Of a stretch of DNA of 52,161 bases, positions 29,945-50,444 are shown one piece after another. The notes under the pieces are model-generated. The model had not been told where the DNA came from and searched no databases. It was given only the letters and a program-made list of their open reading frames with translations. A program made the translations under genes and the position numbers. Within the stretch, counting starts at the first letter, position 1; every line of letters begins with the position of its first letter. This stretch comes from Chthoniobacterales bacterium (lineage in GTDB: Bacteria > Verrucomicrobiota > Verrucomicrobiia > Chthoniobacterales > UBA6821): positions 1 to 52,161 of the forward strand of contig JAPJNA010000025.1 in assembly GCA_026461395.1 (NCBI GenBank), written 5' to 3'.

Positions 29945-30089
29945 AAGGGTTCCAAGTGAACAAAAAACTTCGCGTTGTTGCCAGCGCAGGGTTGGTTTTT
30001 TTGTCGAGGCCGGGGAGGAAGAAGCTCAACTCCTTATCTCCTTGCCGAGTGGCCCGTGGAGATTTCTAATCATCACCCCCTCTAGTAAT

Positions 30090-30164
30090 GCGCGATTAGC
30101 TCAGTGGTAGAGCGCTTGCTTCACACGCAAGAAGTCGCAGGTTCGAACCCTGCATCGCGCACCA
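30090..30164 (+). tRNA. tRNA-Val (anticodon CAC), encoded CCA
   Basis: Folded by eye: GCGCGAT-TA-GCTC-AGTGGTA-GAGC-G-CTTGC-TTCACAC-GCAAG-AAGTC-GCAGG-TTCGAAC-CCTGC-ATCGCGC-A-CCA. Confidence 0.95.
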
Positions 30165-30537
30165 TTTCAAAATCAGCCCAAATTACTCTTTCAGGCTGAT
30201 AGATAAAGGCCCCGCGGGCGATCGGCTCGTTTGCCTAATGAGTGCCAGAAAGCGCCTTGCCGGCCAAAACTTTGTTACCTTTTGTTACCTTTCCAGAGGG
30301 CTCTAGTGGCCAACCTTGCCTCATCACCGGCGGACAGAGATCTTAAATTTGCTCCTCGGCAACGGCCCCGGCCTCGCCCCTTCATTTTTTACCGGAGGAG
30401 GGTTTTTTACCGCCCAGTGAAAATTCCCATTCCCATTGAAAACCACTTTATGCCTGAGGCGCGTCGGACGGTTCCAACACATCAATGTGGATTTTTTGCC
30501 CTTATTCAGCAAGACCATGCTGGAAAACTTGCATTTT

Positions 30538-30555
30538 TGTAGTTTTCGCACTACA
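30538..30555. promoter_or_regulatory. Candidate HipB operator O1
   Basis: TGTAG-N8-CTACA inverted pentamers upstream of hipB. Confidence 0.55.
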
Positions 30556-30568
30556 TATATAGGACTTC

Positions 30569-30586
30569 TGTAGCGCGAAGACAACA
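30569..30586. promoter_or_regulatory. Candidate HipB operator O2
   Basis: TGTAG-N8-CAACA, one mismatch from O1 half-sites, exactly 31 bp downstream of O1 and abutting the hipB start. Confidence 0.45.
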
Positions 30587-30587
30587 A

Positions 30588-30923
30588 ATGCCAACACCTC
30601 ATCCATCATCATCCGCCGTACAACGCGCCCTGAGTAAGCTAGGCGCAGATCTGCGCGATGCTCGCCGTCGTCGCCATCTTCCCATGGCGATTGTGGCGGA
30701 GCGGGCTTTCACCTCCCGCTCTACCCTGCAAAAGATCGAAGAAGGAGATCCCGGCGTCGGCATCGGTATCTACTGCGCTGTTCTTCAGGCACTCGGCCTG
30801 CTGGACGGACTGAGCGAAGTAGCCGATATCAGCAAGGACAGTGTTGGCTTGGCCCAGTCCACGGCCCAGTTGCCCAAGCATATCCACCTCAAGCGATCCC
30901 CCAAATCGTCCGCTCATGTCTGA
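30588..30923 (+). CDS. hipB: HipB-like XRE-family antitoxin
   Basis: LGADLRDARRRRHLPMAIVAERAFTSRSTLQKIEEGDPGVGIGIYCAVLQALGLLDGL HTH; immediately upstream of hipA. Confidence 0.88.
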   Translation: MPTPHPSSSAVQRALSKLGADLRDARRRRHLPMAIVAERAFTSRSTLQKIEEGDPGVGIGIYCAVLQALGLLDGLSEVADISKDSVGLAQSTAQLPKHIHLKRSPKSSAHV

Positions 30924-32163
30924 TTTTGAAGTCCATATCGCCCTGAACGGACGGACGAGACAAGTCGGCCTGGCAAGAAGCAACAGGGTTCGCGGTAAGG
31001 AGACCATCCTCTTTGAATACGACGACGCATGGCTAAAGGATCCTGAGCATTTTTCTTTGGAGCCTGCTCTCACGATGACAAGAGGCGCGTTTGCTCCCCC
31101 CAGTGGATTGACCGTTTTCGGCTCCCTTGGCGACTCGGCACCCGATACCTGGGGACGGCGTCTTATGCAAAGAGCTGAGCGCAGGGCGGCAGAGCGGGAA
31201 GGTCGCGCTATTCGTACACTGGCTGAGAGCGATTATCTGCTTGGTGTCTCAGATGAGACGCGCCTGGGTGCACTGCGGTTCCGTCGTGTCGGCGAAGAAT
31301 CCTTTCAAGCGCCCGATCGAGCCGGTGTTCCGGCATTGATCAAGCTCGGACAGCTCCTTCAGATTACCGAACGCATTCTGCGGGATGAAGAAACTGACGA
31401 GGATCTACAGCTAATTTTTGCGCCAGGTTCATCGATAGGCGGCGCTCGCCCGAAGGCATCGGTTATTGATCAGTACGGATATCTCTCCATCGCCAAGTTT
31501 CCGAAGGAGACTGATGACTACAGCGTGGAGACTTGGGAGGAAATTGCTCTGCGACTAGCCGAACAAGCTGGTATAGCCACGCCGAAGCATCAACTGATCG
31601 AGGCGGCAGGCAAGGCGGTGCTCTTATCCCGGCGTTTTGACCGCCAGGATCGGACTCGCATTCCTTTTCTCTCAGCGATGGCCATGATGTCTGCCAAGGA
31701 CGGCGAGCATGGAAGTTACCCGGAAATCGTAGATTCTCTTGTTCAATATGGTGCCCAAGCCAAGACTGACGCTCGGGCCCTCTATCGCCGGGTTGTTTTC
31801 AATGTTCTGATTTCCAATGTTGACGATCACCTGCGCAATCATGGGTTTCTTTGGCTGGGCAAGAATGGATGGTCGCTTTCGCCTGCCTATGACCTGAACC
31901 CTGTGCCCGCCGATATCAAAGCACGTGTTCTCACGACTAATATCAGCCTGGACGAAGGCACCTGTTCCCTGGATCTGCTCGAAGCTGCTGCTGAGTATTT
32001 CAGCCTCTCGCTAACTCAAGCACGAATGATCATCAAAGAGGTGGCTCTGGTGACTTCCAGATGGCGCGACATCGCCAAGGAGGTTGGGGCACGCTCTGCC
32101 GAAATCCAACGCATGGCCAGCGCCTTTGAGCATGATGAACTCAAGCGGGCGATGGTGTTGTAG
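30916..32163 (+). CDS. hipA: HipA-like Ser/Thr kinase toxin
   Basis: APGSSIGGARPKASV, LSRRFDRQDRTRIPFLSAMAMMS, NVLISNVDDHLRNHGFLW, LSPAYDLNPVP. Start MSDFEVHIA overlaps the hipB stop. Confidence 0.93.
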   Translation: MSDFEVHIALNGRTRQVGLARSNRVRGKETILFEYDDAWLKDPEHFSLEPALTMTRGAFAPPSGLTVFGSLGDSAPDTWGRRLMQRAERRAAEREGRAIRTLAESDYLLGVSDETRLGALRFRRVGEESFQAPDRAGVPALIKLGQLLQITERILRDEETDEDLQLIFAPGSSIGGARPKASVIDQYGYLSIAKFPKETDDYSVETWEEIALRLAEQAGIATPKHQLIEAAGKAVLLSRRFDRQDRTRIPFLSAMAMMSAKDGEHGSYPEIVDSLVQYGAQAKTDARALYRRVVFNVLISNVDDHLRNHGFLWLGKNGWSLSPAYDLNPVPADIKARVLTTNISLDEGTCSLDLLEAAAEYFSLSLTQARMIIKEVALVTSRWRDIAKEVGARSAEIQRMASAFEHDELKRAMVL

Positions 32164-32294
32164 CGGGTGTCCGACTGCCTACCCCCAGAAGCAGTTGTTC
32201 TCGTCACTGTTGATGAGGTGTAGCCACTCCTCTAGTGATGAGGTCTCAGAACAAGGTTCGTAGGGATGCCATTTGCCATCGCCTCTCCAGTAAT

Positions 32295-32369
32295 GCGCGA
32301 TTAACTCAGTGGTAGAGCGCTTGCTTCTCACGCAAGAAGTCGCATGTTCGAATCCTGCATCGCGCACCA
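32295..32369 (+). tRNA. Diverged copy of the tRNA-Val gene with Glu-type anticodon CTC (possible pseudo-tRNA)
   Basis: GCGCGAT-TA-ACTC-AGTGGTA-GAGC-G-CTTGC-TTCTCAC-GCAAG-AAGTC-GCATG-TTCGAAT-CCTGC-ATCGCGC-A-CCA; four differences from 30090-30164, including anticodon CAC to CTC and loss of one D-stem and one T-stem pair. Confidence 0.7.
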
Positions 32370-32473
32370 TCTTCTACCGAATAAATCGGCAGAATGCGGT
32401 TATCCCCTGATTCATGACGAAAAAGCCCATCCTGGCGCAGGGATTTTAGATGCGGGGTTAGGCGCGTGAGCGA

Positions 32474-32494
32474 CGCTGTAGTTTTCCTACAGCG
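32474..32494. terminator. Perfect 8-bp-stem hairpin in the hipA/glmS convergent region
   Basis: CGCTGTAG-TTTTC-CTACAGCG; shares TGTAGTTTTC with candidate HipB operator O1. Confidence 0.45.
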
Positions 32495-32535
32495 AGAGAG
32501 TAGCAACAACACTCTGCGCTAGAAGCGCATGCCGC

Positions 32536-49899: not shown

Positions 49900-49981
49900 G
49901 GGTAGGTACCGAAGTGGCCAAACGGGGCGGACTGTAAATCCGCTGGCTCTGCCTTCAGTGGTTCGAATCCACTCCTGCCCA
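49900..49981 (+). tRNA. tRNA-Tyr (anticodon GTA)
   Basis: Acceptor GGGTAGG/CCTGCCC, anticodon arm GCGGA-CTGTAAA-TCCGC, long variable arm, T arm GTGGTTCGAATCCAC; no encoded CCA. Confidence 0.93.
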
Positions 49982-50444
49982 GTTTCCCTTTCAGTAAGTC
50001 AGAAAGAGGCTGCGTGGGTGATTTACCCTCTTTTTACAACTCTGCCAAAATTGTCAGGAGATGCCAATATGTGCCACCTTATGCCCCCCGTACTGGCACA
50101 CGACTGGCACAGGTAACTTGGAGGATTTGAATCTGAAATCCCTGCCCTCTGCCGCACCGGTACTCTTAGGTAGGTTTTCCTTCCGCTGTAACACCCAACC
50201 CATAAACTTTTTTTCTCAGATTCCTTCCCCATCAAACCCTCCCCTGAGGTATAGCTCCACCGAGCCAATTGGCTCCCCTACTACTTCTTCAGTTGGTAGA
50301 GACCCTTGCCTACCTTCTTGATCCCCTTGTTCTTCTTGCCGGTGGCGGCAAACCAGATGTGGAGAAAAAAATGCGAACACCGGGTTTTTGAGTCGCAGAG
50401 GGATGGCGGTCTGATATACCAATACAAGTTAACACCCTCCATAT

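Follow-up and report, generated by a model that had tools for sequence, protein, structure and literature searches.

A hipBA islet at a tRNA-Val gene and a probably decaying tRNA copy with a glutamate anticodon in a Chthoniobacterales bacterium

The window, that is the whole stretch of 52,161 nucleotides analysed here (contig JAPJNA010000025.1 of assembly GCA_026461395.1), is contig C77 of a fragmented draft genome of 2.03 Mb in 80 contigs which is 95% complete and by its gene content probably belongs to the Verrucomicrobiota. Two 75-nt tRNA genes were found on its plus strand with the genes hipB and hipA between them. ARAGORN calls the first (30090..30164, +) tRNA-Val(CAC) and the second (32295..32369, +) 'tRNA-Glu'(CTC), and Rfam scores them at 75.0 and 59.7 bits, respectively. 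Copy 2 differs from copy 1 by four substitutions (G10A, A34T, G51T and C59T), the second of which changes the middle base of the anticodon. Copy 1 forms a cloverleaf free of mismatches, whereas copy 2 has two (A-C in the D stem, U-C in the T stem), and in its predicted fold the cloverleaf is lost. An earlier note made from the letters of the sequence had described this same pair, with four differences, the change from CAC to CTC and two broken stem pairs, and its description was confirmed. The blast alignment of the two copies extends over 89 bp with 93% identity (E ~1e-33), so their likeness is far above chance. Moreover, copy 2 is identical to the valine tRNA in 71 of 75 positions and to the two glutamate tRNAs of its own genome in only 52/76 and 47/76; these are encoded by separate and genuine tRNA-Glu(CTC) and tRNA-Glu(TTC) genes with sequences unlike copy 2.

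The gene hipB (30588..30923, +) encodes an antitoxin of 111 aa with a helix-turn-helix domain (Pfam HTH_31, above the cut-off) and overlaps by 8 nt with hipA (30916..32163, +), encoding a Ser/Thr kinase toxin of 415 aa (Pfam HipA_C, above the cut-off, E=1.7e-44). The kinase motifs of the latter are intact (SSIGGARPKA, SNVDDHLRNHGF and LSPAYDL, comprising the Gly-rich, catalytic and Mg-binding motifs), and an HTH antitoxin directly upstream of such a HipA_C kinase is the arrangement of a HipBA type II toxin-antitoxin module. In these modules the operon is under repression by HipB, which also neutralises HipA; HipA itself phosphorylates an aminoacyl-tRNA synthetase so that growth stops. The segment from 30537 to ~32155 is homologous to alphaproteobacterial loci; using blastn, the homology to approximately 80 of them begins in most cases at 30537..30587 (+), the promoter/operator region of hipBA. 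The HipA of the window is 80-85% identical to proteins of many Alphaproteobacteria, whereas none of the copies found in 58 relatives exceeds 73% and those within its own genus reach 39%, which is a sign of transfer between phyla.

The sequence of about 135 bp that follows the left tRNA is not the ancestral flank of this gene but a recurring end (30165..30297, +), which closes with GTTACCTTTTGTTACC and has copies 75-89% identical behind the 3' ends of other tRNAs. Eighteen such sites were found in relatives, and each immediately follows a gene for a Val, Asp or Glu tRNA or a tRNA 3' fragment. In fourteen the end lies behind an intact gene for tRNA-Val(CAC), Val(GAC), Asp, Glu(TTC) or Glu(CTC), the Glu(CTC) site being interrupted by the end of its contig, and the other four follow bare 3' fragments. 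Where the sequence was available all copies close with GTTACC-TTTT-GTTACC, one of them in a one-base variant, and these repeats could be the arm sites of an integrase. A sequence model of the end recovered the same strong sites and a few more, almost only within the genus.

No integrase gene lies between 30165 and 32294 of the window. Integrases of family PF00589 had matches in all of the 16 genus genomes searched, and one protein of 471 aa is encoded to the left of an attachment fragment and an element end on contig C41 of the same genome as the window; nevertheless none of the candidates in the 16 genomes could be tied to the conserved end, and the idea of an integrase specific to it was abandoned. 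On the same contig C41 (locus L115) fragments of the 3' end of tRNA-Glu(TTC) are repeated at positions 1095, 1231 and 1367 with a spacing of 136 bp, and similar fragments occur on the minus strand of locus L119 at 3107 and 2974, approximately 133 bp apart. This regular spacing looks as if attachment sites had been multiplied in tandem beside an island. Elsewhere in the window, at 49976-50086, a stretch weakly similar to the element end directly follows a tRNA-Tyr gene together with GACTGGCACA-like direct repeats, and is possibly another attachment region. In addition, GGACACCAAA repeats near tRNA ends in locus L110 and behind tRNA-Cys in contig C59 of the same genome hint at another family of arm sites, which in C59 lies close to an integrase gene.

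The earlier note had asked for relatives that lack hipBA and carry one tRNA-Val at this position, and such a relative was found. It is G002, which belongs to the same genus; its dapL and glmS (encoding proteins 91.5% and 95.4% identical to those of the window) enclose a single tRNA-Val and there is no hipBA. The sequence before this tRNA matches that upstream of the left copy of the window, including the promoter-like motif TTGCCG-N17-TCTAAT, and the sequence behind it matches the region downstream of the right copy (32370..32535, adjoining glmS) in 151 of 166 bases, indicating the latter as the ancestral downstream flank. Compared with G002 copy 1 is unchanged (0/75 differences), copy 2 differs in 4/75 positions (5.3%) and its downstream flank in 15/166 (9%). 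Three unrelated genes are placed between dapL and tRNA-Val in G002 (L078, 2610-5232); one resembles a gluconate kinase gene and the other two are metabolic as well.

Related elements with other cargo, or with their own hipBA, were found in the genus. Contig C125 of G001 presents, in this order, tRNA-Val(CAC), the element end, hipB, hipA (38% identical), a TOTE primase-helicase, TTGCTCCCAATTGGGAGCAAC and a 24-nt 3' fragment of tRNA-Val, which is followed by the gene directly following tRNA-Val in G006 and G012. The same layout is repeated in contig C4 of G014 at tRNA-Val(GAC), with a second element end in tandem. The HipA proteins of these two elements are 38-39% identical to that of the window, and on the far side both carry TTGCTCCCAATTGGGAGCAAC and only the 24-nt fragment, which does not contain the anticodon. 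Behind other copies of the end are HipT/HipS pairs (in G002 and in the genome of the window), AbiE (in G007 and G006), ArdC (in G010) and, in contig C2 of the same genome, ArdC together with the coupling protein of a T4SS for conjugation; a relaxase match stayed below the Pfam cut-off. A second hip islet in this genome (C41, L115 1367-3640) consists of a tRNA-Glu fragment, the element end, a HipT/HipS pair, an HTH gene and another tRNA-Glu fragment, with hemB after it. The empty site of G002, the conserved end behind the left tRNA and the islets with hipBA that G001 and G014 have at their tRNA-Val genes together support the proposal of the earlier note that a hipBA piece of ~2.2 kb was inserted at tRNA-Val.

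The right side of the insertion is different. Downstream of hipA lies the 3' end, encoding the C-terminal part, of a truncated DUF3024 gene (32178..32288, -), which in its 111 bp shows 95.5% identity with an intact gene of G007. It is joined to the 5' flank of the right tRNA at 32286..32294 (..CTCTCC/AGTAAT), as was seen by comparing CTCTCCTCCAGTAGACC in G007, CTCTCCAGTAATGCG in the window and CTCCCCCAGTAATGCG in G002, which have 2-6 bp in common at the join. The right-end palindrome and the 24-nt fragment present in G001, G014 and G010 are absent from the element of the window. From this comparison and the missing usual end it follows that the right tRNA is still bordered by resident sequence (5' AGTAAT and the 3' flank) but has lost the promoter. 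It had been suggested that the sequences before the two tRNAs are similar; this holds for ~13 bp of homology, but the bases CTCTCCAGTA before copy 2 are not simply a duplicated tRNA leader, since they are the meeting point of the truncated DUF3024 gene and the tRNA. Two copies do stand at the insertion, as expected if the element had left a tRNA copy, but for the right one the best reading is the resident tRNA, separated from its promoter. A reading in which the element carried a complete tRNA in its attachment site was rejected because the sister elements end with the 24-nt fragment and the right copy has resident flanks.

These observations are very probably explained by a right-truncated islet without integrase at tRNA-Val, which carries an alphaproteobacterial-type hipBA module and has left the right tRNA as a drifting remnant of the resident gene. 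The parent family would be integrative elements of this genus that target tRNA genes at their 3' ends for insertion, and the segment of the window would resemble a CIME, a decayed integrative element that retains an attachment end and cargo. The right tRNA would be the body of the resident gene, or an earlier tandem duplicate, severed from its promoter when the element end, which lies inside the DUF3024 gene, fused with it over a few shared bases. On this reading it is now drifting, and by chance one of its four substitutions turned the valine anticodon into that of glutamate. It counts against this explanation that the right repeat is a full-length tRNA, since site-specific insertion normally leaves a short fragment and one more recombination step is therefore needed. 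The element might have entered by a one-sided homologous insertion with an illegitimate join on the right; alternatively, a duplicated tRNA might have received it by site-specific insertion before a deletion occurred, and both routes fit equally well. To judge from known HipBA biology, addiction to the module is most likely what maintains the islet in the chromosome: in a cell losing it, growth would be arrested by HipA through phosphorylation of an aminoacyl-tRNA synthetase. On the same grounds the module may also protect the cell.

An unrelated tandem duplication of the tRNA, between whose copies hipBA happened to be inserted or retained, would account for both copies being full length, which is not expected from ordinary site-specific insertion, and an earlier duplication is indeed one route to the final structure. 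As an explanation of its own it is nevertheless unlikely. A second tRNA-Val(CAC) copy was found in none of the genus relatives whose locus was examined, and the conserved end which marks insertion at this tRNA in many genomes stands exactly behind the left copy.

The left tRNA-Val, with its promoter, is probably the working gene. The promoter-like motif TTGCCG-N17-TCTAAT (with its surroundings 30037..30070, +) is found 15-21 bp upstream of tRNA-Val in seven of the 11 genus relatives examined, and by this consensus test it is absent before copy 2. However, copy 2 has the same orientation as hipA and begins 131 nt downstream of it, and no terminator was found in the interval, so that read-through from hipBA is possible. 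Its anticodon reads glutamate and HipA of E. coli phosphorylates the glutamyl-tRNA synthetase GltX (PMC8262856). It could thus be imagined, as in the earlier note, that an expressed copy 2 is a decoy, a mischarging tRNA or a regulator tied to HipA and glutamyl-tRNA synthetase, but this is very improbable. The variant anticodon stem occurs in one of 213 genomes of the order (none was found in the 212 others), intact stems and a Glu-type body are lacking along with the conserved promoter, and the sister hipBA elements carry only a tRNA fragment. Among 60 close hipA relatives (80-85% identical, Alphaproteobacteria) none has a tRNA within ~5 kb of hipBA, and the genome already has real tRNA-Glu genes. 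In addition, the targets of HipA-family kinases vary (TrpS for Caulobacter HipA2 and for HipT), which leaves the link to GltX itself unproven, and no case of a decoy tRNA was found among the papers listed by a literature search on toxin-antitoxin systems. The claim of a decoy, mischarging or immunity RNA is therefore not supported, given the uniqueness of the copy, its lost promoter, its broken stems and the occurrence of hipBA elsewhere with no adjoining tRNA. Equally small is the chance that a read-through transcript with a valine body and a glutamate anticodon interferes with, or reports on, the target of HipA, in which case a toxin-antitoxin locus would have gained a tRNA as a new component. 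That copy 2 is still identified as a tRNA gene by ARAGORN counts against the preferred reading of a drifting resident gene, as does the possible read-through; but in a copy that is accumulating mutations and lacks a promoter of the conserved type the glutamate anticodon is most likely decay and not a decoy for the toxin, and the copy is presumably without function.

An assembly artefact joining two loci at a repeated tRNA, conceivable in a draft genome when several related contigs of other genomes end at such elements, is scarcely credible, as dapL and glmS flank the tRNA pair as in G002, the DUF3024-tRNA junction shares only 2-6 bp and offers no repeat to mislead an assembler, and copy 2 has substitutions of its own.

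Insertion at a tRNA gene can thus leave a full-length relic with a switched isotype, which gene callers report as a real tRNA-Glu. Moreover, the locus indicates that an uncultured bacterial genus has tRNA-targeted elements which form a family, sharing a conserved end and carrying toxin-antitoxin or defence genes (hipBA, HipT/HipS, AbiE, TOTE), and the islet of the window adds an alphaproteobacterial-type hipBA module to this cargo.

Among known systems the closest are the cis-mobilizable elements (CIMEs), which together with their tandem accretion were first described for Streptococcus elements related to ICESt1 (reviewed in PMC5704250). Like these the islet is a cargo with an attachment end common to larger mobilizable elements (contig C2 of the same genome and the ArdC-bearing element of G010) and with no integration or transfer genes, only hipB, hipA and the DUF3024 fragment being present between the tRNAs. 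Related members also stand in tandem behind one tRNA in G014 and G010. The left attachment site consists of the tRNA 3' end and the conserved end (30090-30297); unlike a CIME, the copy of the window has lost the right attachment site, in place of which is the full-length tRNA copy. It also shares with the genomic islands of tRNA genes collected by Islander (PMC4383910) an insertion at the tRNA 3' end that leaves the tRNA intact and, in G002, an empty site in a relative; it differs from them in having no integrase and in its distal repeat, a decayed full-length tRNA instead of a fragment. A HipAB module on another tRNA-targeted island, the composite CGI48 in the tRNA-Trp gene of Shewanella putrefaciens, has been demonstrated to stabilise it (PMC8978831). 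The module of the window may act in the same way, although CGI48 is 48 kb long with an integrase and the islet of the window 2.1 kb without one. Finally, there are known cases in which tRNA gene fragments left after the insertion of elements were wrongly annotated as tRNA genes (PMC9897764). In both cases a tRNA caller reports a non-working copy made by insertion, but the copy described here is full length and carries a substitution that changes its isotype.
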